Source: Croceivirga sp. (lineage in GTDB: Bacteria > Bacteroidota > Bacteroidia > Flavobacteriales > Flavobacteriaceae). Taken from it: a DNA stretch of 64,000 nt. This document shows positions 4,537-25,278 of the stretch, piece after piece (within the stretch, counting starts at the first letter, position 1; each line of letters begins with the position of its first letter). The notes under the pieces are model-generated. The model was not told the DNA's origin. It saw nothing but the letters and a program-made list of their open reading frames with translations, and did no database searches. A program made the translations under genes and the position numbers. The stretch spans positions 62,001 through 126,000 of the forward strand of contig JANQQQ010000039.1 in assembly GCA_028284935.1 (NCBI GenBank), read 5' to 3'.

Positions 4537-5253
4537 TTATTCTTTTTGCTTCCCTTTGAGGAATTCGATGACCGAATCTTTATAACTGGCCCCAATGGGA
4601 ATTTCCATTTGACCAATTTCTACGTCCATTTTGGTAAAGGCCGTAATCTTTGCCGTGTTCACGATATAGGAACGATGCACCCTTAAAAAGGTAGGGGGCA
4701 GCTTTTTTTCAAAATTGGCAATGGTATCCTTTGTAATGGTGTTTTCCTGCATGGTGAAAATCCGGACGTAGTCCTTCATACTTTCCACATAGTCAATATC
4801 ATCGAAGTTGATTTTGACGAATTTTTTGTTTGCGTTGACATAAAGATGATTATTTTGTGGTGTATTCACAACGGGATGTTCACTGGATATGGGAAGATTG
4901 GAAAGGCTTTTGTATTTATTGATAGCCTTATACAAACGGGAAAAGGAAATGGGTTTTAGAAGATAGTCTGCCGCATCCAAATCATAACTTTCCAAAGCGT
5001 AGTTCCTGAATGCTGTAGTAAAAATCACTTTGACTGAAGATGGAATGGTCTTTATCAGTTCCAAACCTGATAATTGGGGCATTTCAATATCAAGAAAGAC
5101 CAGATCAATTTTACTTTGGTTTAAAATGTCAAAAGCCTTGGTGGGGTCCTGAAGGGTGTCGACGACCTCAATTTCCGGAAGTAGCCCAAGATGGGATTGG
5201 AGGACCTGTATGGCCAAGGGTTCGTCGTCAATAATTATGCATCGAATCTTCAT
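4537..5253 (-). CDS. LytTR-family response regulator
   Basis: A 238-residue two-domain regulator of the LytR/AlgR type. The receiver domain (about 3-115) has the acidic pair D9-D10, phospho-acceptor D55 in FLDIEMP, and the conserved Lys in YLLKPI. The LytTR DNA-binding domain spans about 135-232, with DIDYVESMKDYVRI and FLRVHRSYIVN as its usual signatures. It starts 2 bases after the stop of the sensor kinase gene (5256-6332), so the two form an operon and presumably a phosphorelay pair. Targets are not evident. The neighbouring ankyrin/hydrolase genes are divergently transcribed and are candidates. Confidence 0.93.
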   Translation of the reverse strand: MKIRCIIIDDEPLAIQVLQSHLGLLPEIEVVDTLQDPTKAFDILNQSKIDLVFLDIEMPQLSGLELIKTIPSSVKVIFTTAFRNYALESYDLDAADYLLKPISFSRLYKAINKYKSLSNLPISSEHPVVNTPQNNHLYVNANKKFVKINFDDIDYVESMKDYVRIFTMQENTITKDTIANFEKKLPPTFLRVHRSYIVNTAKITAFTKMDVEIGQMEIPIGASYKDSVIEFLKGKQKE

Positions 5254-6549: not shown

Positions 6550-7518
6550 ATGAAAAAACTTGCTTTATTACTTATTTATCTACTCGTATCAACGATTACT
6601 GCTGCCAAGACACAAAATTGCGAAGCCTTGCTAGGGGCGGTAAGGGCCAATGATGAAAAAGCGGTGGAAACCCTACTGAAAACCACAAATCCCAACTGCG
6701 TTTACGATGAAAAAATCCAACCTAGGACACCCCTTGGGATGGCCGCTACAATAGGAAACTTGGAAACCGTTAAAAAGCTCATTAATGCAGGGGCCAAACC
6801 AAACTATCGTTTTAAAAGGGATGCCAGTCCCCTTATGATTGCCGCACAAAAGGGGCACTATGGTATTGCCAAGTACCTATTACAGGCTGGGGCCAATGTC
6901 AATGCACGGATTGTGGGTGATGGCACTCCTTTAATGGCCGCTGTTCGTGGAAATAATGTTGACATTGTAAAACTATTCTTGAAAAAAGGAGCCACGGTCA
7001 ATACTGAGGTCATGGGCGACGGAAATGCCATGATTATCGCCGGAAAAAAGAATAGTAAGGAAATTTTAAAACTTTTGGTGGAGGCTGGTGCCGATATCAA
7101 TAGCGCAGTCGAGGGTGATGGCACTGCCCTCATCAGAGCTTCTTCAAGAGGAGATCTTGAAATGGTGAAAGCCTTGGTAAGTCTCGGAGCCGATGTGAAT
7201 AAGAAAAGCAGTCGGGATGGGAACCCCTTGATCATGGCCTCAAAAAATGGACATCTTGATGTGGTTACCTATCTAGTGGGCAAGGGTGCCGATGTGAACG
7301 TCCATGTTAGGGGGGATGAAACCCCTTTGATTCGGGCTGCTTGGAGTGGTCATTTGGAAGTGGTAAAATTCTTGGTGGAACAGGGAGCCGATGTGAATAC
7401 ATCAGTTAGGGATAGTTATTCCTTAAATTCTGAGAAGCGAAGTGCCCTTAAAATGGCAAGACACGGTAATCATACCGATGTTGAAGCCTACCTACTAAGT
7501 AAAGGGGCCGAAAAATAA
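6550..7518 (+). CDS. Exported ankyrin-repeat protein
   Basis: A 322-residue protein with an N-terminal signal peptide (about 1-19, ending near TAAKT) and eight or so ankyrin units of about 33 residues. Most units carry the phrase (G/D)DGxPLIxA(A/S) before the first helix and GADVN at the end. The DGNPLI variant is familiar from exported Bacteroidota ankyrin proteins, some of which are fused to BlaR1-type peptidases. It is a periplasmic protein-protein interaction scaffold by inference. The next gene starts only 25 bases downstream and encodes a beta-lactamase-fold hydrolase, so a functional link in the envelope is plausible. Confidence 0.88.
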   Translation: MKKLALLLIYLLVSTITAAKTQNCEALLGAVRANDEKAVETLLKTTNPNCVYDEKIQPRTPLGMAATIGNLETVKKLINAGAKPNYRFKRDASPLMIAAQKGHYGIAKYLLQAGANVNARIVGDGTPLMAAVRGNNVDIVKLFLKKGATVNTEVMGDGNAMIIAGKKNSKEILKLLVEAGADINSAVEGDGTALIRASSRGDLEMVKALVSLGADVNKKSSRDGNPLIMASKNGHLDVVTYLVGKGADVNVHVRGDETPLIRAAWSGHLEVVKFLVEQGADVNTSVRDSYSLNSEKRSALKMARHGNHTDVEAYLLSKGAEK

Positions 7519-7542
7519 TCCATAATCCTTTAGGAGAAGATA

Positions 7543-8922
7543 ATGAGTAGGATATATAGCCAATTGATTTTAGTCCTTTTGGTAGTGTGTGGAGGTCTAC
7601 ATGCCCAAGAAAGTCAAAGGATTGATTTCCTTTCCGAGTCATTTCTTAGGCAGACCCAACTGCCAGGACTTTCCATTGCGGTTGCGAAAGAAGGTAAAGT
7701 GATATATGCAAAAGGATTTGGATTTTCAAATTTGGAAGACCAACGTCCAATGCTTCCTTCTTCGTGCATTAGAACTGCCTCTGTGGCAAAGGTCCTTACA
7801 GCCACTGCGTTGGGACGTTTGGCCACCGAAGGCTTATTGGACTTTGATGCACCTATAAAAAAGTATGTTCCCTATATCAACAGGAACTATGTGAATTTAA
7901 CCGTTCGCCAGTTGGCAGGGCATACGTCAGGTTTGAAACATAGACCTTCTGGAAGAGGTTATCAAAACAAACAATATACTACCATAAAGGAAACGGTTGA
8001 CATTATCAACGGACCCTTATTGTTTGAACCTGGAACGGACTACAAGTATTCTACAGCCGCCTTTAATTTACTAGCGGCAGTAATAGAAGGGGCTTCCGGG
8101 ATTCCTTATGACGAGTATATGAAAACTAGGGTTTTTGCACCCTTAAAAATGGAACATACGTCTCCTGAAAACATCAATAAACTAACAGATAGGGATGCTG
8201 AGATTTACTATCACAAGAAAGGAAAACTGAAAAGGGACAAACTCAACAATGGAAGCTACAAAGTTCCTGGTGCTGCCTTTCGGAGTACGCCGAGTGATTT
8301 AGTGAAATTAATGGGCGCATATACTGACCGAGGATTTATTTCTGGAAAAGTTGTTGAGGACATGTTTGCTAGCAATAGTTTGCCAAATGGTAAAAAGACG
8401 CATGTGGGCATCGCTTGGCGTTCTTCCATTGATGTTTTTGGGAATGCCGTTATAGAGCATGCTGGTAGTTGGAGGGGTGCGCGTACGGTTTTGGTGTATT
8501 ACCCAGAAGACGAATTGAGTCTTGCGGTAATGGTAAATGCCGAATGTCAACTGCTTATCGAGGAAACAGCACATATTTTTGCACAGTTCTTCCTCAATGG
8601 AGCATGGAGTACTTCCAGGTTATCGGTGAATGAGAAAATAAAAGTGGTTCATCATTCCAAAGAAGGCCAAGTGCAGTATAAGGGAAACCTTCTACTAGAT
8701 TTGGGTCGAGGTACTTTATCTGTGGAAAGTGAAAATTACCTAAAGTCAAATGAAGTGGTCCAACTCCAAAATGGGTTTGCTTTGAGTACCTTTTACGGGC
8801 TTTTTTTTATGGAAATAGACACCAGTTCAATACTGGATGGACAGGTTTATGCTTATAGAACAAGGAATGAAAGAAATCCAAGGGAAGAAGGTCCCCTGCT
8901 CGAGTTCCGTAGTCTGGACTGA
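7543..8922 (+). CDS. Serine hydrolase of the beta-lactamase/class C (PF00144) family
   Basis: A 459-residue exported enzyme; residues 1-22 are a signal peptide ending in LHAQ. The active-site motif is S80-V-A-K83. The usual YSN triad appears as Y169-S-T171, a substitution at the third position, and the HxG box is seen as HAGSWRG. Family members hydrolyse peptides, esters or beta-lactams in the periplasm; the substrate cannot be told here. The ATG at 7543 is preceded by AGGAG, an unusually good Shine-Dalgarno for this group. The gene is likely co-transcribed with the ankyrin gene 25 bases upstream and converges on the thioredoxin gene with only 8 bases between stops. Confidence 0.9.
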   Translation: MSRIYSQLILVLLVVCGGLHAQESQRIDFLSESFLRQTQLPGLSIAVAKEGKVIYAKGFGFSNLEDQRPMLPSSCIRTASVAKVLTATALGRLATEGLLDFDAPIKKYVPYINRNYVNLTVRQLAGHTSGLKHRPSGRGYQNKQYTTIKETVDIINGPLLFEPGTDYKYSTAAFNLLAAVIEGASGIPYDEYMKTRVFAPLKMEHTSPENINKLTDRDAEIYYHKKGKLKRDKLNNGSYKVPGAAFRSTPSDLVKLMGAYTDRGFISGKVVEDMFASNSLPNGKKTHVGIAWRSSIDVFGNAVIEHAGSWRGARTVLVYYPEDELSLAVMVNAECQLLIEETAHIFAQFFLNGAWSTSRLSVNEKIKVVHHSKEGQVQYKGNLLLDLGRGTLSVESENYLKSNEVVQLQNGFALSTFYGLFFMEIDTSSILDGQVYAYRTRNERNPREEGPLLEFRSLD

Positions 8923-16546: not shown

Positions 16547-19285
16547 CTATTGTCTTTGAAGTATTACTTTTCTGGTGACCCGTTTTCCATTAATTTCAAC
16601 GGTCAGTATGTAAATACCATTGGTTAGGGAACCCGTATCAAACTGTTCGTAGTGGTTTCCCTTTGCCCTGGTCTTACTGTCAACGAAAGTTATGGATTGG
16701 GCCCCATTGAACATGGAGGTTAAAGTTACCGAAACTTTTCCATCTTCAGGAATATGGTATCCAACCTGGAACGTATTTGCCACAGGATTGGGCCAGATGA
16801 CCACATCTTCTACAGGCTCGGCATCCTGTCCTATTTCAGCTGTAAGGGGAATACCGCCCCCGGGCCCTGGACCACCAAAGCCACCACTGCCACCACTACA
16901 CCTTCTGTCCCTTTCACCGAACAGGGTGAACAATCGGGACGTGGTACGTGTAGCGGTACCATTGAGACCCTGCCCGCTCCTGAACCTTCGGGTACAGGTA
17001 ATACGATATACCCCGGGCCTCATGGTGGAACTCATGGTCAGCGTATTGCCACTACCCCCAAAAGACTGGGGTCCCGTGACCGTCCATGAATGTTCGTAGA
17101 GGTTGTTTATCGCGGGGTTGTTGTCGACCCTTATCGTCCTAGTGGCACCACTGTTCTGACAGGAATACCAATAATTTGTATTAATCCTGGGCGTAGTCGG
17201 TGTACCGTTGCCCGTTGCCACCCCACAAGTAGTTCGTATCTGAAGGCCCAATTCATCCCTTAAAAGGTCTTCCCATTGCTCTCTTAAAAAGTCAGTCCTT
17301 ATATGAGGGGAATTATCATTGACATCACCATAGACTTCATCGAACGGGGTCCAATTGTTTCCGGTCAATTGGGCCTCAGACCTATTTAAATCGTTTTGGT
17401 TATTCAGCGGAGCGGTTGAGGCAAGGCCACTGAAAAGTGGGACAAAGGAAAAATTGTCATTGCCACTTGCGTTGAAATAGAACCTAAAGAGTATCTGCAC
17501 CAAGGCTGGGACCGACACATCACTCGCGCCTTGGTTGTCCTGGTATCCGCCAGCGGCAATATCATAGTTGAATTGATTGAAGCTAAGGCTGCGCTCCCGA
17601 ATCGTGGTCGGCACGGGCCCTGTGAATATCCAGATTGAGGATACCCTTCCCGTTCCACTTATAGGATTGGTCCTGACCCGTATCCTTCCACTGGTAATCA
17701 CGGAGCCCCATTCATATTCTAGAATTCTGGAACCCGGGGAATAATCAAGGTCCCCGTTTCCAGCCGTGGAGCCGTTCAGGGCTCCGTTTACAATGGCTAT
17801 GTTCTGGAGGCCCCCTTGGCTTGGAAAGCCAATGGAATTGAGTTCATTCTGCCAAGTGGTAAAGTCCGGGTGCGGGTTTGCCCCCCGATGTCTCAGGAGC
17901 ATCTGTTTTGCCGCCTTACTGTCCAAAAGGTCAAAGGCGTCATCAATTTCACCCTGTCCAATACCGAACAAATCTCTAATGGCAATCCGGTCCACATCTT
18001 CCAGTAACTTTTGGTATCCTACGGGGACATTGGCTCCCCGGTGCGGGGCATCAAAACTGATGTAATGGCTTACATTGTGCGTTCGCCCTCCCATTTCCAT
18101 TCTGCGCAGGGCCCAACGGGCCACAAGGCCGCCCATACTTTCACCAATGACCACACTGGGTTGGTTACCCTGTTTTTCCCGATTTACGCTTTCCATAAGG
18201 TTGCGGAGCACATTGCCATTGGTTCGGATGTCCGCACCCCCGCTTTGGAAGTTAAGATAGATGACATCACGTCCATTGGATCTTAGTATTTCTTCAATAT
18301 CCGTAAAACTCCTATACTTTTCCCTCACATCGGCTATTGATTCGTCATTAAGGGCATCAAAGCCCTCTACGATAATCACCGGCCTATCAAAAACACCGTC
18401 ACAACCCACGTACATAAAAGCAGTACCCCCGGAAAGCCCTGTTGAAGAGGTGCTTCTATTGATTGCTGCCTTACCCCTTAAAATAATGGCCTTAGAAGCA
18501 GAACCGTTCTCATCAGCACTCAGTTCAAATACCATAGTAGGTTCTTCCTGTTCCAACTGAACAATCTTAATTGCGCTGTAACTGATAAATTCCCTATTTG
18601 CCAATCCAAACTTAATGGCAATGGACTTTACTCCCCTAGTACCATACTGTACCTGATGGACATCCCCTTTGGCCAAAGGTTTCCAACCTTGGCCATCATC
18701 AAAGTTAATGCTCAGGGACTTTACCTTGTTCTCGTTCTGTATGTGAAACAGCTCTGGAAGCGCCTCAAAGGTTACCTCTCCCGAATACACTTTTTTCTTC
18801 AGTACGCTGGCATTGAAAATATGGTACTTGGTATATTCGTCGGCAATAGGTACTCCCTGCTGCGTAAGGGATATATTATTATCAATTTCTTCCATGTCAA
18901 GATATTCGCCCCTGGCCTGGACCACTCCAATGGGAACGTAATCAGTCCTTTCCTTGGTAGTTCTTTTGAGTTCCTTGAAGTCATACTTTGGCAATCTTTT
19001 ATTTTTCTTTAGGTCGGATTTTCTGAGCATTCGATAAATGCGCTTAAAGGTCCTTCTATCCGTCAATTTAAAACCATCTTCTCCAGAACCTTTAAAATCA
19101 AGAAACTCCACTATTGGGTCTTCTATGAGAAAGCCCTTGTTCAAAAGATATTTGGTTTTGATGGATTTCTTGTCCACGCTGTCCAGCTTTGCCTTGTAGT
19201 CATCGATAATGTCGGAAATTTCATCTTGACCATGCACTACAATTGAAAACAATGCTAGGAAGAAAACAAGTAATTTTTTTGTCAT
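16547..19285 (-). CDS. T9SS-secreted alpha/beta hydrolase (lipase/esterase-like)
   Basis: A 912-residue secreted protein. The start is placed at the ATG for MTKKLLVFFLALF because it gives a proper signal peptide (ending VVHGQ); 11 more codons are open upstream from a TTG. The middle holds an alpha/beta hydrolase domain (about 295-540). Its nucleophile elbow is GESMGG with the serine near residue 383, followed by SFDAPHRGA, as in PGAP1/lipase-like enzymes. A Gly-rich linker comes near residue 805. The last 75 residues (VIWPNPVANTFQ to the end) form a type A T9SS sorting domain. The substrate is unknown; lipid or ester cleavage at the cell surface is the best guess. Confidence 0.88.
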   Translation of the reverse strand: MTKKLLVFFLALFSIVVHGQDEISDIIDDYKAKLDSVDKKSIKTKYLLNKGFLIEDPIVEFLDFKGSGEDGFKLTDRRTFKRIYRMLRKSDLKKNKRLPKYDFKELKRTTKERTDYVPIGVVQARGEYLDMEEIDNNISLTQQGVPIADEYTKYHIFNASVLKKKVYSGEVTFEALPELFHIQNENKVKSLSINFDDGQGWKPLAKGDVHQVQYGTRGVKSIAIKFGLANREFISYSAIKIVQLEQEEPTMVFELSADENGSASKAIILRGKAAINRSTSSTGLSGGTAFMYVGCDGVFDRPVIIVEGFDALNDESIADVREKYRSFTDIEEILRSNGRDVIYLNFQSGGADIRTNGNVLRNLMESVNREKQGNQPSVVIGESMGGLVARWALRRMEMGGRTHNVSHYISFDAPHRGANVPVGYQKLLEDVDRIAIRDLFGIGQGEIDDAFDLLDSKAAKQMLLRHRGANPHPDFTTWQNELNSIGFPSQGGLQNIAIVNGALNGSTAGNGDLDYSPGSRILEYEWGSVITSGRIRVRTNPISGTGRVSSIWIFTGPVPTTIRERSLSFNQFNYDIAAGGYQDNQGASDVSVPALVQILFRFYFNASGNDNFSFVPLFSGLASTAPLNNQNDLNRSEAQLTGNNWTPFDEVYGDVNDNSPHIRTDFLREQWEDLLRDELGLQIRTTCGVATGNGTPTTPRINTNYWYSCQNSGATRTIRVDNNPAINNLYEHSWTVTGPQSFGGSGNTLTMSSTMRPGVYRITCTRRFRSGQGLNGTATRTTSRLFTLFGERDRRCSGGSGGFGGPGPGGGIPLTAEIGQDAEPVEDVVIWPNPVANTFQVGYHIPEDGKVSVTLTSMFNGAQSITFVDSKTRAKGNHYEQFDTGSLTNGIYILTVEINGKRVTRKVILQRQ

Positions 19286-19546
19286 AATGGTTAGATTAAA
19301 TGTGAATTCGGTTAACAAATCGATTGTGAAATTAGTTGCAACAATCGAGAAATGCCTTACGGTTTTCCTTAGAAAAACTGGGGTTTTTCTCCAAAATTCA
19401 ATATTTAACTATTTGGAAATAATGTGAAAACTCAGTCCTTAAATATGTTGACTTCGGAGATATAGATAGAATTATTTCTCTTAGCAAAAATTCTAGGTGT
19501 TTCGTAGTGAAGAAGTTTCACTAAAAGAACGATTTATTGCACAGGT

Positions 19547-20725
19547 TTAAGCTATTGATATATCCCTGCCTGCCACTTCAATTATTTTTTTTGCAACATA
19601 ATCAATCTCCTTTTTAGTATTATACCTACCAATTCCAATTCGGAACACAGATTTTTGAATTCCCTCAGAAACTCCCAACTCAGCAATAACGTGTGAAGTT
19701 GTTGTAGACGCACTAGTGCAGGCCGAACTTGTTGAAAACAGAATTTTTGGAAGATGTTCTTTTAGTTGTTCTCCTGTAATGGAGGGTATGGCCAAACTCA
19801 AATTCCCAGGGTGTCGATTTACGGGGCATCCCAACAAAGTAATTTGAGGAATGGTTTCAAACAGTTGATCTTTCAAACGATTCCTAAGGAAATTCATATT
19901 TTCAACGTTTTTTACCATTTGATTTTGTGCCAACTCGCATGCTTTTCCCAACCCAACAATGGCTGGTATATTTGGAGTTCCAGAGCGTAGTCCATTTTCT
20001 TGGCCTCCTCCAAGCATCATGGGTCGGATTTTAGTTTTTAAACCGGATTTGCGAATGAACAATGCCCCTGCCCCACGTGGGCCATAAAACTTATGGGCCG
20101 AGAGGGAAGCCATATCGATTTTCAGTTTTTTCATATCCAAAGAATACCAACCAACCCCCTGTGTAATGTCGCAAAAAAATATAGCTCCCTTGGCACTACA
20201 CAGTTCACCGATTTCTTCTATCGGTTGAATAGTTCCTATCTCATTATTGGACAACATGATGGACACCAGTAATGTTCTTTCGGAAATAGCTTCTTTCAAC
20301 TGTTTTAAGTCGATTCTGCCCACTGAATCTACATTGAGCTTTGTGACTTCAAACCCCTTTTCCTCGAAATACCTCATGCACTCCAAAACCGCTTTGTGCT
20401 CGGTACACTGAGTAATTATGTGGTTCCTTTTTGTCAGATTGTCCTGGGCCAGTCCCAGAAGCCCTAGGTTGATAGCTTCCGTGGCACCGGAGGTGAACGT
20501 GATTTCTGAGGGTCTCGCCCCTAACAACTCGGCTACTTTTACTCTAGAATTTTCAAGAGCTTCCTTGGTTTTCCAACCCATTTTGTGGTTTCCATTCCCG
20601 TAATGAGTTGTGAAAAAGGGCAACATAACGGAAAGAACATCTTGATCCACAGGCGTTGTCGCGTGTGAATCAAGATAGATCAGTTTATTCCCGATATCTG
20701 TAGAATTCTTATTTCCAGTAGTCAT
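19547..20725 (-). CDS. Cysteine desulfurase (NifS/IscS-like)
   Basis: A PLP enzyme that takes sulfur from cysteine as an enzyme persulfide. The start is set at the ATG for MTTGNKNSTD, which overlaps the Dabb gene; a GTG five codons upstream is also open. It has about 392 residues. Visible marks are the PLP lysine in SLSAHKFYGPRGAGAL, the His in TEHKAVLE, and the active-site Cys in SSACTSAS. The loop lacks the exact SGSACSS wording of housekeeping IscS, and the N-terminus reads LDSHATTPVD rather than LDNNATTP. It is the last gene of the six-gene unit that starts at 23285. No IscU or SufBCD gene is near, so iron-sulfur assembly is not indicated. Confidence 0.88.
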   Translation of the reverse strand: MTTGNKNSTDIGNKLIYLDSHATTPVDQDVLSVMLPFFTTHYGNGNHKMGWKTKEALENSRVKVAELLGARPSEITFTSGATEAINLGLLGLAQDNLTKRNHIITQCTEHKAVLECMRYFEEKGFEVTKLNVDSVGRIDLKQLKEAISERTLLVSIMLSNNEIGTIQPIEEIGELCSAKGAIFFCDITQGVGWYSLDMKKLKIDMASLSAHKFYGPRGAGALFIRKSGLKTKIRPMMLGGGQENGLRSGTPNIPAIVGLGKACELAQNQMVKNVENMNFLRNRLKDQLFETIPQITLLGCPVNRHPGNLSLAIPSITGEQLKEHLPKILFSTSSACTSASTTTSHVIAELGVSEGIQKSVFRIGIGRYNTKKEIDYVAKKIIEVAGRDISIA

Positions 20726-21086
20726 ACTCTGCAAAGCCACTTAACAAATTGGAAGCAAGATTTTCAATTCTTTTATGGTCAGGATGCCTGATATAGGAAT
20801 CCTTCGCTTCCTCCGATATAAAACCTAGTGTCAATACCACATTGAAACCGTCAGAAGAATTCTGAATCTTGTATATTTTGAATTCTTCAAACCCTTCGAT
20901 TTTATTGGGTAATCCCGAGAAAATCTCTATCAATTCTTGCTGTTTTTTAAGATCATTGACCTCATTCCACTTGAACAATAATACATGGTGTAGAAGCTTT
21001 GGATTTTCTGGTTCAATATTACTATCTCCCGTATATGGGATCAACAACCCAAGACTTAAGACTACTATTGAAATTATTTTTGTCAT
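20709..21086 (-). CDS. Exported Dabb (stress-responsive A/B barrel) protein
   Basis: A 125-residue protein. Residues 1-20 are a hydrophobic signal. The rest is one Dabb domain: LLHHVLLFKWNE at the start, FEEFKIYKI in the middle, and RHPDHKRIENLASNL, the classic HPxH segment, near the end. Dabb proteins form small ferredoxin-like dimers; some bind or modify aromatic or reactive small molecules, and most are uncharacterised. An exported version beside thiol-redox proteins is unusual. The gene overlaps the cysteine desulfurase gene by 17 bases, which implies translational coupling. Confidence 0.83.
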   Translation of the reverse strand: MTKIISIVVLSLGLLIPYTGDSNIEPENPKLLHHVLLFKWNEVNDLKKQQELIEIFSGLPNKIEGFEEFKIYKIQNSSDGFNVVLTLGFISEEAKDSYIRHPDHKRIENLASNLLSGFAEYDYWK

Positions 21087-21116
21087 GATATATTAGTTTT
21101 CTTTATTTATAGGTAA

Positions 21117-21482
21117 TTAAAAAGAGAGGGTTTGGGCACCTTCGGCAATCCAATCCAACATAGGTCCGGCCCCCACAACTGTTGTTCCTTCCACCGTTTC
21201 TTCCACATTCAACCCTCTATGGTTGAAACATGGAGCGCATGCCCAAAGGGTTCCGCCGCCGGTGGTAAATGCCTCAATCAGCTCATTTAATTTCTTAAAG
21301 GGTTGAACATGGGTGAACTCGCAGGCTCCGTCTTTACTCAATTCTACTCCGTCGGAAGTTAGGAATATACCAACGTTGATACCTTTACTCATAGCTGCAT
21401 TGGCCACGGTAAAAGCTACTGTAGAAACATCATCATTGGCGTTTACTGATAGGGTCACGATTAATTTGTTTACGTTTTTCAT
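21117..21482 (-). CDS. DsrE-family protein
   Basis: A 121-residue cytosolic protein of the DsrE/F-like fold, which includes sulfur-relay proteins such as TusD and DsrE. The N-terminal strand LIVTLSVNANDD and the VGIFLTSDGVELSKDGA segment are typical. A C82-A-P-C85 motif in LWACAPCFNHRG sits where family members carry a persulfide cysteine or a redox pair. It probably accepts or passes sulfur. It lies 30 bases upstream of the Dabb gene and 36 downstream of the DsbD-like gene in the same unit as a cysteine desulfurase, which would be a natural sulfur donor. Confidence 0.87.
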   Translation of the reverse strand: MKNVNKLIVTLSVNANDDVSTVAFTVANAAMSKGINVGIFLTSDGVELSKDGACEFTHVQPFKKLNELIEAFTTGGGTLWACAPCFNHRGLNVEETVEGTTVVGAGPMLDWIAEGAQTLSF

Positions 21483-21518
21483 TGTTTTTCGATTTTAATT
21501 ATGTGTTTAATTTTTGTT

Positions 21519-21947
21519 TTACTTTATTTGAAAATCCAGTGTCCTTGGATAAAAACATTGTTTTTTGGAACAGGCCTGATAGGTCAATGCTCCATTTATT
21601 GAGGGCTTGGAACTTGATTCTTTTCTGCCTTTGAGTATAAGGGTAATCGAAAAGGTATCTTCTATCAAGTCTTGTTCATTCCTATTAATCCCATTTGAAA
21701 AAATTGTCTTCAATACCTCAAAAGAGATAGGCTCTTCAATCCAAAATTTGGTAGCAACAAAACTTTCAAATTTTGGGCTTTCCGATTGGATATAAAATCC
21801 TTCTTTGACCTTAAAGAATAGTATGATTTCCGTGAGCTGATGGTCTTTGATTTGTTCAAAATCAGCTCCTTCGAATTCTACAAACTCTTGCCCTTGGATT
21901 GATAAAGTGAATAAGACCAAGAACCTTACCATCTTAAAGCAGCTCAT
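21519..21947 (-). CDS. Stand-alone DsbD N-terminal (alpha) domain-like protein
   Basis: A 142-residue exported protein with a short signal (to about residue 20, ending IQGQ) and a beta-rich domain that matches the periplasmic alpha domain of DsbD. The paired cysteines lie in YQACSKKQCFYPRT, spaced C-x4-C near the C-terminus as expected. In full DsbD this domain is followed by eight membrane helices and a thioredoxin domain, both absent here. Start: the ATG at 21947 overlaps the TlpA gene by 14 bases; an ATG at 21932 sits one base after its stop and is equally possible. It probably exchanges electrons with the neighbouring TlpA-type protein. Confidence 0.78.
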   Translation of the reverse strand: MSCFKMVRFLVLFTLSIQGQEFVEFEGADFEQIKDHQLTEIILFFKVKEGFYIQSESPKFESFVATKFWIEEPISFEVLKTIFSNGINRNEQDLIEDTFSITLILKGRKESSSKPSINGALTYQACSKKQCFYPRTLDFQIK

Positions 21948-22479
21948 TGAGACGTTTTTTAAGATGGACCAACTTTACATCAAAGTTTTTGGTATCCAGA
22001 AGCGACATGAATTGTATATTTCCTTCGGGATCAATTAAAAGATTGGAAGCCAACATAATTTCATCCCTGGCCAGTTCTGGAAGTATGTCCTCTGGTGCAA
22101 AGCTTGCTGCTACTGCACCATCTGAATCCAAGAGTACTGGGAACGATAAATTGAATCGGTCTTTTATCAATTGTGTTACCAATTCCTTGGATTCTTTGAC
22201 ATCAATAATCAAGACCTCAACGTTCTTATCCTGATATTCTTGATAGATTTCTTCAAGATAGGGGGCTTCCGCATTGCAGTAGGGGCACCAAGTTGTAGCG
22301 ATATGAACCACAACGAACTTACCCTTAAAATCTTTAAGACCAACTTTTTCACCTCCCGTGGAAAATAGGTTGAAATTAGGAGATTTTATAACGTCCTTTC
22401 CCGAGGGAATGGACTGTCCAAAGCAAACAGTGCACAAAAAAGAGAGACCTACAGCCAATTTTAAAATGTAACGTTCCAT
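21934..22479 (-). CDS. TlpA-type thiol-disulfide oxidoreductase
   Basis: A 181-residue exported thioredoxin-fold protein. A signal peptide (1-21, ending CFGQ) is followed by the AhpC/TSA-Redoxin style domain. The active site is W64-C65-P-Y-C68, and a cis-Pro loop appears near FPVLLDSDG. A central insertion (VAASFAPEDILPELARD) is as in TlpA/ResA relatives. It should act as a disulfide reductase in the periplasm or on the outer face of the inner membrane. It lies between the methyltransferase (gap 20 bases) and the DsbD-like gene (overlap), so all three are expressed together. Confidence 0.9.
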   Translation of the reverse strand: MERYILKLAVGLSFLCTVCFGQSIPSGKDVIKSPNFNLFSTGGEKVGLKDFKGKFVVVHIATTWCPYCNAEAPYLEEIYQEYQDKNVEVLIIDVKESKELVTQLIKDRFNLSFPVLLDSDGAVAASFAPEDILPELARDEIMLASNLLIDPEGNIQFMSLLDTKNFDVKLVHLKKRLNELL

Positions 22480-22499
22480 ATTTATTGATTTTTTTATTT

Positions 22500-23285
22500 C
22501 TATTGTTTTCTGGCGAGAATGGAAATACTCTTTATGCCAAATCTTTTAGTAGCTCCCTGGGCACTATCAGAGATAAATGCATAAGGGTTCTCTTTTACCG
22601 ATTCGATAAGAAATCCAGCCTCCTCAATCAATTTTTTGTAACTGTCTATTTGCATAGCCCCACCAATGCATGCGGCCCAAAGTGTGGCATTGCAGCTTAT
22701 ACTTTCCGGAAGATGTACACCGGTAACAATATCGGACAGAACCAATCGTCCCCCTGTTTTCAATACTCGGTAGGCTTCATTGAACACCTTATCCTTTTCG
22801 CAGGATAAATTGATAACCCCGTTACTGATCACCACATCAGTGCTTTTGGATACAATAGGAAGCTCTTCGATATAACTTTCCCTAAAGAGAACTTGGTCAT
22901 AGTCATTTTTAAACCCAAGGTCTTCTGCCTTTCGAAGTTGTTCCTTGGTCATGTCGATACCTATAACTTCTCCTGAATATCCAACCTGGTTAGCGGCAAA
23001 GAATACATCCATTCCAGAACCACTGCCCAAATCCAATACAACTTCTCCTTCTTGTAATTGGGCAAAATCAAAAAAGTAACCCACTCCTGCAAAAGAGGCT
23101 ATGGCCTCCTGTGGAATCTGGTCTAATATCTCTGATGGATAGCCCAGGCGTTCGGCCAAAGCACGGCCCATTTCAAAATGGTATTCCACCTCTGGATGTT
23201 CGGCCACTTTGGCGTACATATTCTTTACTCTTTTTTCCAGATCCTTTTGATCTACCTTTTTTGATGTTTTTAAAATTGCGTCCAT
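22500..23285 (-). CDS. ArsM-like SAM-dependent methyltransferase with altered cysteines
   Basis: A 261-residue class I methyltransferase. Motif I is D85-LGSGSG, the acidic SAM residue follows in VIGIDMT, and post-motif EAYRVLKTGGRLVLSD is clear. The overall wording is that of the arsenite methyltransferase (ArsM) group, including LWAACIGGA with Cys206. However, the conserved Cys of the canonical ISNCVxNLS segment is Gly156 here, and no Cys follows residue 206; Cys162 and Cys198 are extra. Arsenite is therefore not a safe substrate call, and another thiol- or chalcogen-containing acceptor is possible. It is the first gene of the six-gene unit, with a promoter about 60 bases upstream. Confidence 0.8.
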   Translation of the reverse strand: MDAILKTSKKVDQKDLEKRVKNMYAKVAEHPEVEYHFEMGRALAERLGYPSEILDQIPQEAIASFAGVGYFFDFAQLQEGEVVLDLGSGSGMDVFFAANQVGYSGEVIGIDMTKEQLRKAEDLGFKNDYDQVLFRESYIEELPIVSKSTDVVISNGVINLSCEKDKVFNEAYRVLKTGGRLVLSDIVTGVHLPESISCNATLWAACIGGAMQIDSYKKLIEEAGFLIESVKENPYAFISDSAQGATKRFGIKSISILARKQ

Positions 23286-23342: not shown

Positions 23343-23377
23343 CAAATCTATTCGTAGCAAACGCTAAACACACAAAA
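23343..23377 (-). promoter_or_regulatory. Promoter of the six-gene sulfur/thiol unit
   Basis: On the minus strand TAGATTTG (23343-23350) is a full TAnnTTTG match followed by C. A TTTTG (23373-23377) sits 22 bases upstream at the expected -33 distance. It lies 57 bases before the methyltransferase ATG and is the best two-element promoter I found in the window. Confidence 0.6.
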
Positions 23378-23400
23378 TCAGAAGGTTACAAATAGTCTAC

Positions 23401-23431
23401 AAACCCAGTTTGTTAGGTCTACAATGGGTTT
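23401..23431. repeat. Inverted repeat upstream of the six-gene unit promoter
   Basis: AAACCCA and TGGGTTT form a 7-bp inverted repeat with 17 bases between the arms. GTCTACAA occurs twice across it (from 23394 and 23417). It lies about 25-50 bases upstream of the -33 element, a position suited to an activator site, for example for the neighbouring LuxR-type regulator. Confidence 0.4.
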
Positions 23432-23487
23432 ACAAAATGAAGGAATTATTTTTTAACTATTTGAAAATCAATAAATTGAAAATAAAT

Positions 23488-25278
23488 TCAAAAGGAACGC
23501 AAAAAAAGGTTCAAATCGTCTTCAGGGGCAAGGTTCAGCTTTTTTCGAAGCCTATGACGATTCATTTTAACGGAGGCAGGACTGATGTTTTGCAATACGG
23601 CAATCTGTTTGGTGTCCAAATCGAGTTTGATTAGGGAGCACAATCGGATTTCATTTTTGGTCAAGCCCTTAAATTGCTTGGTCAGCTTGTCAAAAAACGA
23701 ACTGCTCAAGGAATCAACCTTGGTATAAAAATCGTCAGTGCCTTTATCCACCCAGATTTTATTTTTGATTTCAAGCTCTAAACCTTGTAGTTCTTTCGCA
23801 CGTCTTTTACCAGTTGAGCTCTTTAATTTTTCGAGTTTCTGCTGAAGGGAAAAGGCCCATTCTTGATTGTTGGAAATGTTGATTGCAAAATTGGTCAGGT
23901 CCTTTTTTTTGTAGTCTAGCTCAGTATTCAAAAAATCAATTTGAAGCTTTTCATACTTAGCCCGTTGTTGATAACGATAGACTATTAAAGCTATAAACAA
24001 AAGTGCCGCAAGGCTCCCAAAAACAATCCACAAAGTCTTGGCCCGGTTCTTACTGTTCAATAATAAAATCGTCGATTCTTGGTATTTGAGTTTCTCTGCT
24101 GCTATTTGAGCTTCCTTGGCACGAACAATACTATCTTGGGTCCTAATTCTGGTAAACTCCATTTGTTGGAGCTTTTTGGCAGCTTCTTTCGATTTTAGGC
24201 TATCATTAAGGAAAATTTTGGTTTCATGGTAGAAAAGGGCTTGGTTCCCACTTCCAATCTTTTTATAGCTTTTGTACAAGCAATCGCACGCTTCTTTTTG
24301 TCTCCTGACATCCCCTATTTCCAAAGCACTGTTGTAGGCATCTTTACAATCACTTATACTCTTGGGATAGTTCGCTTGCAGGGAATAAAGTTCCCCTCGT
24401 TGTATCAATAAATCAGCGATATCCGCTTGAGCCCCCAGATCTTGTAGAAGATTCATGCTGCGTTGATAATAGTTAAGAGCTTCTTTATATTTCCCTTGAT
24501 TTTTTAGGGTATTGCCCGTATTGCGCAAAAACATGGAGACATTTTTTTTGGAGCTTGTGTTCTCGCCCATCGCCAAACTTCTGCGATGATACTCTAAAGC
24601 GTTGTCATAGTCTTTCATAGCATTGTGAACAACACCTACATTGGCCAGGGCAAAGGCTATTCTGTCTTGATTTCCAAGTCCTTCCCTGATTTTGAGGCTC
24701 CTTTCCTGATATTCCAATGCTTTAGTATAATTTCCTTCCTTTTGATACAATAAACCGATATTGGTCAGTGTGATGGCAATAGGCTCCGGACTTCCTATTT
24801 CCTCTCGTATCTTTAGGCTCTTTTCATAAAAATCAATCTGTCGCAAAACATCACCGGCATCTCCATATACAATCCCTAGCTTATTGTAGGCTGAAGCGAT
24901 GACACTTTTTTTGCCGAACACTTTTGCGACTTTAAGGTTTTCTTCAAAATAAGGGATGGATTTTTCATAATCCCCTTTTACCCAAAACGCAGTCCCCTTG
25001 GTGCTAAAGGCGGCAGCAATAAAGGTTTTGGCATCAGTTTTTTTTGCCAGCTCTAGTTGGAGGTCCGCATAGTAAAGAGCGCTGTCAGGTTCAGAAAATA
25101 CGTATTTGTACCAAGAGTAGGCCGTCATCGCCTTAAGGCGGGCCGTATCGGGCAGGTTCTGATTTTCCCATACCAGAAAAAGGGAATCCAATTCTGAAGG
25201 TGTATAGGAGGACTTGAGCTGTGCGTTGTTAATGCCAAAACAAAAAATGAACATTAAGACAGCTACGAGCTTTCTCAT
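23488..25278 (-). CDS. Membrane-anchored TPR regulator with LuxR-type HTH
   Basis: A 596-residue one-component regulator. A signal sequence (1-19, ending NNAQ) leads into a periplasmic TPR domain (about 60-345), with units like ALEYQERSLKIREGLG repeated five or six times. A coiled coil follows, then one membrane helix (about 405-427, TLWIVFGSLAALLFIALIVY), a second coiled coil, and a C-terminal LuxR-like HTH (about 535-596, LTKNEIRLCSLIKL and SVKMNRHRLRKKL). This architecture is common in Bacteroidota, where periplasmic or envelope signals control nearby genes. The six-gene sulfur/thiol unit begins 203 bases downstream on the same strand and is the natural target candidate. Confidence 0.88.
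   Translation of the reverse strand: MRKLVAVLMFIFCFGINNAQLKSSYTPSELDSLFLVWENQNLPDTARLKAMTAYSWYKYVFSEPDSALYYADLQLELAKKTDAKTFIAAAFSTKGTAFWVKGDYEKSIPYFEENLKVAKVFGKKSVIASAYNKLGIVYGDAGDVLRQIDFYEKSLKIREEIGSPEPIAITLTNIGLLYQKEGNYTKALEYQERSLKIREGLGNQDRIAFALANVGVVHNAMKDYDNALEYHRRSLAMGENTSSKKNVSMFLRNTGNTLKNQGKYKEALNYYQRSMNLLQDLGAQADIADLLIQRGELYSLQANYPKSISDCKDAYNSALEIGDVRRQKEACDCLYKSYKKIGSGNQALFYHETKIFLNDSLKSKEAAKKLQQMEFTRIRTQDSIVRAKEAQIAAEKLKYQESTILLLNSKNRAKTLWIVFGSLAALLFIALIVYRYQQRAKYEKLQIDFLNTELDYKKKDLTNFAINISNNQEWAFSLQQKLEKLKSSTGKRRAKELQGLELEIKNKIWVDKGTDDFYTKVDSLSSSFFDKLTKQFKGLTKNEIRLCSLIKLDLDTKQIAVLQNISPASVKMNRHRLRKKLNLAPEDDLNLFLRSF

Follow-up and report, generated by a model that had tools for sequence, protein, structure and literature searches.

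A six-gene operon of two conserved modules that may join cysteine-derived sulfur transfer and methylation to periplasmic thiol redox in a marine-type Bacteroidota genome

Six genes and their families

The stretch of DNA considered here is 64,000 nucleotides long (Croceivirga sp., contig JANQQQ010000039.1, positions 62,001 to 126,000; hereafter the window) and contains, at positions 19547 to 23285, a compact minus-strand unit of six genes that the original prediction, made from the sequence alone, had described as a sulfur-transfer and thiol-redox system. All six open reading frames were confirmed, and their coordinates and family identities hold:

22500-23285, minus strand: S-adenosylmethionine (SAM)-dependent methyltransferase, from an ArsM superfamily branch in which Val corresponds to Cys72 of CmArsM and Gly to Cys174 (profile match and alignment)
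21934-22479, minus strand: exported TlpA/ResA-like thioredoxin with WCPYC (family match; export by inspection)
21519-21947, minus strand: exported stand-alone DsbD alpha-domain-like protein with a conserved C-x4-C (YQACSKKQCFYPR), overlapping the TlpA gene by 14 bp (PF11412 in homologues, predicted fold, cysteine motif)
21117-21482, minus strand: DsrE-family protein, motif WACAPCFNHRGL, with Cys82 at the TusD Cys78 position (PF02635 and alignment)
20709-21086, minus strand: exported Dabb (A/B barrel) protein, an optional member (PF07876)
19547-20740, minus strand: NifS/IscS-type cysteine desulfurase with the His104, Lys206 and Cys328 equivalents kept (Aminotran_5 and NifS/IscS matches, alignment)

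From the methyltransferase to the desulfurase the genes are spaced by 20, -14, 36, 30 and -32 bases, where negative values denote overlaps. The listed desulfurase start is a GTG; an ATG at 20725 may be the true start, and with it the overlap with the Dabb gene remains. Judged by this layout of short gaps and overlaps, with a single Bacteroidota-type promoter match upstream, the six genes are an operon. By inspection, the TlpA, DsbD-alpha-like and Dabb proteins carry signal-like N-terminal segments.

The equivalents of IscS His104, Lys206 and Cys328 align intact in the desulfurases of all nine loci that carry the DsrE (described below). These are the active-site histidine, pyridoxal-phosphate lysine and catalytic cysteine that mark Group I (NifS/IscS) enzymes, and we assign the protein to that group by its residues. 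It scores 365-400 bits against the NifS, IscS and DndA models, below their equivalog cut-offs. Other NifS/SufS-like homologues in the genome reach at best 36% identity to it, so the operon enzyme is an extra copy. We rejected a role in phosphorothioate defence: the scores against DndA and SspA models reflect the desulfurase family, and no other PADLOC partner was matched among the six genes.

The adjoining DsrE protein matches PF02635 with 49 bits (cut-off 22.7). This match, together with the alignment of its Cys82 to TusD Cys78, points to the DsrE/TusD family of sulfur carriers, and 9/9 loci keep the motif C-[AS]-P-C-F-N-H-R-G. A convincing sequence match among solved structures was not found. 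The pairing of a desulfurase with a DsrE-fold carrier whose cysteine sits at this position recalls the IscS-TusA-TusBCD/DsrEFH relays. Unlike those relays, however, the cluster has neither DsrF/DsrH nor TusA/TusE, and neither the operon nor the loci of relatives showed more than one recognisable DsrE-fold gene, where a DsrEFH/TusBCD assembly calls for three neighbouring paralogous subunit genes. The CxxC of the operon's DsrE is a further difference and makes a redox role possible. Matches of about 30% identity in other Flavobacteriaceae were set aside, since they belong to a separate DsrE-rhodanese-like operon. A more distant relative, with 34% identity and the motif CSPCFKKRG (CSPCF..RGL), is carried by a Paracoccus plasmid, with a desulfurase and TusA nearby; that region (L035:4208-12351) holds the desulfurase, TusA, the related DsrE, two proteins with no Pfam match, a MetE-like/TusA-like protein and SelA.

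The thioredoxin is AhpC-TSA/ResA-like (PF00578/PF08534 matched by 8/8 members) and has ResA as its best match in the PDB, aligned over residues 32-129 only. Its fold, its CxxC motif and an export signal (the last by inspection only) are those expected of a TlpA/ResA thioredoxin. The protein encoded next to it is harder to place, because the window copy alone reaches only 19 bits against PF11412 (cut-off 25). Its homologues, in contrast, match that family in 7/7 cases, with a best E-value of 5e-9. Foldseek returned nDsbD first (1l6p, E 3.7e-5) for a predicted model of moderate quality (predicted local distance difference test, pLDDT, 71), and the cysteine motif aligns with the YQGC region of Escherichia coli DsbD, with a spacing of x4 instead of x5. 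VIA-align gave the model a Z of 8, tied with unrelated adaptor appendage domains, so the fold call depends on the Foldseek order, the Pfam matches of the homologues and the cysteine motif. On these three lines the protein is probably a DsbD alpha domain with its cysteine pair. The nDsbD-like fold, the cysteine pair and the TlpA/ResA-like partner are shared with the known pairing of DsbD/ScsB alpha domains and TlpA-type thioredoxins; the differences are that the operon's alpha domain stands alone, has C-x4-C, has no membrane domain within the operon and is encoded by a gene that overlaps tlpA. That overlap measures exactly 14 bp in eight loci and 4 bp in a ninth, which suggests translational coupling.

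The methyltransferase belongs to the Methyltransf_31/PRK11873 ArsM-like family, although its best NCBIfam match, the arsenite methyltransferase model NF008823, gives 230 bits and lies under the curated cut-off of 263; it matches UbiE-type models as well. The ArsM-like label of the original prediction stands for the superfamily, in which the protein is alignable over the C224 region, and is misleading as to the arsenic-binding site. In 10/10 cluster copies the residues equivalent to CmArsM Cys72, Cys174 and Cys224 align as Val, Gly and Cys, a pattern also found in stand-alone and haloarchaeal members of the branch. In CmArsM, the C174A and C224A mutants are inactive on both arsenite and methylarsenite, and C72A is inactive on arsenite (PMC3877260). 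Two of the three cysteines that bind arsenic are thus gone, which makes it unlikely that the enzyme methylates arsenite by the established mechanism. We rejected an identity as arsenite methyltransferase on this loss and on the surroundings, since inspection and selective Pfam scans recognised no ars genes next to the clusters, in contrast to plasmid-borne arsM genes. Plasmid proteins annotated as arsenite methyltransferases, moreover, retain the arsenic-binding cysteines. The AlphaFold model is poor (pLDDT 65, with region 196-208 below 50), and the conserved cysteines are not placeable in it.

Two modules and their distribution

A DsrE search covering about 85,000 genomes recovered eight loci (L009 to L016) with 74-89% identity, from Flavobacteriaceae, other Flavobacteriales and Saprospiraceae-type records. 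With the window counted, DsrE and desulfurase are adjacent in 9/9 loci, so the original pairing of these two proteins proves to be the invariant core of the system. The full set of six, arranged as in the window, recurs in L009, while L011 and L013 have the order methyltransferase, TlpA, DsbD-alpha, DsrE, desulfurase and lack Dabb. In L012 the methyltransferase directly precedes DsrE and desulfurase; in L014 it lies close by on the opposite strand. The L010 locus comprises the DsrE-desulfurase pair and Dabb, and L015 and L016 the pair only. Dabb is thus present in three of the nine loci (window, L009, L010).

Whole-genome searches nevertheless found the methyltransferase in all nine genomes that bear the DsrE. 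Where it lies away from DsrE it heads a methyltransferase-TlpA-DsbD-alpha triad (L052, L053) or, at a contig end, a methyltransferase-TlpA pair (L051); the genome of L012 has two copies, one beside DsrE and the other in a TlpA/DsbD-alpha context (L054). Such unlinked pairs of loci occur in four genomes (L010/L051, L012/L054, L015/L052, L016/L053). The system is therefore best described, from these gene orders, as module A (methyltransferase-TlpA-DsbD-alpha) plus module B (DsrE-[Dabb]-desulfurase), fused in the window, L009, L011 and L013 and apart elsewhere. The co-occurrence of DsrE and methyltransferase across nine genomes of several families is far above chance, even though some of the genomes, e.g. 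L015 and L016, are close relatives.

These comparisons bear on the earlier view of the six genes as one functional unit, for which a gene-neighbourhood search in relatives had been named as one half of the refuting test, the other half being independent promoters and expression. The search did not refute it: gene order and co-occurrence are kept, which is more than chance grouping would give. What had been joined as six genes is a conserved unit, but one made of two modules with an optional Dabb. The role in dealing with toxic or reactive chalcogen or thiol compounds that the original prediction suggested is a conjecture. The pairing of TlpA with a DsbD-like domain was likewise borne out, the two genes being adjacent wherever the TlpA subfamily was examined, including four more genomes, found through TlpA, in which the DsbD-alpha-like gene directly follows. 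In L052, L053, L054 and L079 both homologues look by inspection like lipoproteins.

Searches of 395 genomes sampled across the phylum found the DsrE in 1 of them, the methyltransferase branch in 3 and the TlpA subfamily in 5, counts that may be underestimates since a limited number of candidates was scored per genome in this first look. Identity of EF-G to its window counterpart ranges from 97% down to 66% over the set, yet that of the desulfurase is 58-62% whether the genome is nearer (L011, L013) or farther (L012): 60% against an EF-G identity of 66% in L012, but 58% against 84% in L011. DsrE identity in L012 is 81%. Since desulfurase identity does not track EF-G and the distribution is patchy, the sequences are consistent with horizontal spread of the operon.

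Beyond Bacteroidota, on haloarchaeal plasmids (L029-L033), OsmC precedes a methyltransferase that shares 55-58% identity with that of the window and lacks the same cysteines; the partner there is of the OsmC/AhpD type, in contrast to the operon's DsrE, desulfurase and TlpA. In G277 (L080, 4777-7666) the order is DUF4395-OsmC-SAM methyltransferase-TlpA-DsbD-alpha, although that methyltransferase is unrelated to the one in the window. Together these neighbourhoods suggest that methyltransferases and small thiol-active proteins are repeatedly encoded side by side. A DUF4395 gene also lies ahead of the methyltransferase in L012 (6589-7098).

Proposed pathway and alternatives

Our tentative reading, which we hold as a working possibility, is that the operon carries out a dedicated transfer and methylation of cysteine-derived sulfur, with a periplasmic thiol-redox arm. 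In this scheme the desulfurase would form a persulfide from cysteine, and DsrE would take up or reduce that persulfide through its CAPC motif, the first cysteine of which is at the TusD Cys78 position. The methyltransferase would then methylate a thiol, a persulfide or a similar soft nucleophile supplied by the relay, but not arsenite. In the periplasm, TlpA may deal with the resulting product or with oxidised thiols connected to it, exchanging thiols with the DsbD-alpha-like protein; Dabb would be an optional exported accessory. The gene families, the catalytic residues, the conserved modules and their co-occurrence, the lost arsenic ligands and the unique upstream repeats are observed, whereas we infer which way the sulfur flows, what accepts the methyl group, the exchange between TlpA and DsbD-alpha and the link across the membrane. 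MddA, MddH and MddM are SAM-dependent sulfide and thiol S-methyltransferases (PMC12904073); the proposed small-thiol S-methylation would resemble theirs by analogy of function only. In L011 a homocysteine S-methyltransferase gene is inserted between the DsbD-alpha-like and DsrE genes (7014-7949), which fits S-methyl chemistry within the operon.

Several observations weigh against this scheme. A cytosolic methyltransferase has no obvious chemical link with periplasmic redox proteins. In L079-L082 the TlpA-DsbD-alpha pair occurs with no adjacent DsrE, desulfurase or close methyltransferase copy. Members of the methyltransferase branch also occur on their own and, in haloarchaea, next to OsmC, which means that a desulfurase is not necessarily the source of the substrate. 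Finally, the relatives outside the window are metagenome-assembled genomes. The more specific version, a hitherto undescribed Bacteroidota pathway in which cysteine sulfane sulfur is methylated by a new non-arsenic ArsM branch, coupled across the inner membrane to the tightly paired TlpA and DsbD-alpha, and made into or exported as a methylated sulfur compound, is one we regard as rather doubtful.

The unlinked genomes and the occurrence of module A parts with no module B alongside lend themselves to another explanation, namely a sulfide, polysulfide or thiol stress operon of two independently useful modules that are merely co-regulated, with no linear pathway. Here the methyltransferase would detoxify excess thiols, DsrE and the desulfurase would tune sulfane sulfur, and TlpA/DsbD-alpha would repair periplasmic thiols. 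We consider this unlikely, as the occurrence of the methyltransferase with DsrE in every one of the nine genomes, and the single joined operon in four of them, argue for a linked function.

Selenium handling, in which the desulfurase acts as a selenocysteine lyase, DsrE carries selenium and the methyltransferase yields volatile methylated selenium, is distinctly improbable. Cysteine desulfurases can deliver selenium from selenocysteine, DsrE-like UxxC selenoproteins have been predicted (PMC9312934), and NCBIfam models include ArsM-like selenoprotein fusions. No SelD above cut-off was found in the nine genomes, however, so nothing in them points to a selenium utilisation trait, although detoxification alone would not require SelD. 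The UbiE-type matches of the methyltransferase would also suit the addition of a thio or methylthio group to a cofactor in the membrane or periplasm, e.g. a quinone or a metal-binding small molecule, kept in its thiol form by TlpA/DsbD-alpha; the insertion of sulfur, its methylation and thiol redox in the periplasm, taken together, could belong to the maturation of a thiol cofactor. We think this very improbable, because no scaffold-building enzyme or transporter lies inside any examined cluster. A unit that methylates arsenic or detoxifies thioarsenic compounds, which the sub-threshold NCBIfam match would favour, is extremely unlikely given the Val and Gly at positions where CmArsM mutants are inactive on arsenite and the lack of recognised ars genes.

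If the sulfur-transfer and methylation reading is correct, it would unite a cytosolic sulfur relay, SAM-dependent methylation and thiol redox in the periplasm within a single pathway. We found no description of the six-gene set in a search of open-licence papers; the component families are already known, and their combination into one system seems not to have been described there. The reading would also define an ArsM-like branch, in Bacteroidota and haloarchaea, that automated annotation could misread as arsenic methylation, provide a concrete set of partners for finding the true substrate of that branch, and perhaps reveal a new source of organosulfur compounds.

Upstream region and neighbouring genes

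Three features upstream of the methyltransferase gene may govern expression of the operon:

23343-23376, minus strand: match to a Bacteroidota-type promoter, TTTG-N22-TAGATTTG (pattern scan; kept in L009)
23384-23435, minus strand: four TTGTARAC-type direct repeats with a phasing of about 11 bp, a probable operator (genome pattern search and comparison with L009)
23488-25278, minus strand: TPR protein with a weak C-terminal LuxR/GerE helix-turn-helix match (GerE below cut-off), syntenic in L009

The promoter match is the sole one to TTTG-N17-23-TANNTTTG on the operon strand in the operon region and lies about 57 bases ahead of the methyltransferase start. Across the window the pattern is not clearly above chance (6 found, 3.8 expected), so the match carries weight only through its position and its conservation in L009; a sigma-70 promoter scan gave no excess over shuffled sequences. 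The repeats sit just upstream of the promoter match, in the same arrangement as in L009. When one mismatch was allowed, a double-repeat pattern had two matches in the 4.2 Mb genome, both at 23384-23435, and its reversed control had none. That the repeats are unique to this upstream region suggests a pathway-specific regulator, and they are likely to be the operator of a dedicated one, for which the TPR-plus-GerE-like gene is a local candidate.

Upstream of the methyltransferase in L011 there is instead a near-perfect palindrome with 17-bp arms (5081-5114), unlike the direct repeats of the window and L009; regulation perhaps differs by lineage. In L013 (1-3941) a large gene divergent from the methyltransferase encodes a hybrid two-component sensor with Reg_prop repeats, confirmed by Pfam, and a large divergent gene in L051 (385-4635), judged by N-terminal resemblance only, may encode a similar sensor. 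Directly downstream of the operon, at window positions 16547-19318, lies the gene for a 923-residue secreted lipase-like protein with a Por secretion tail.

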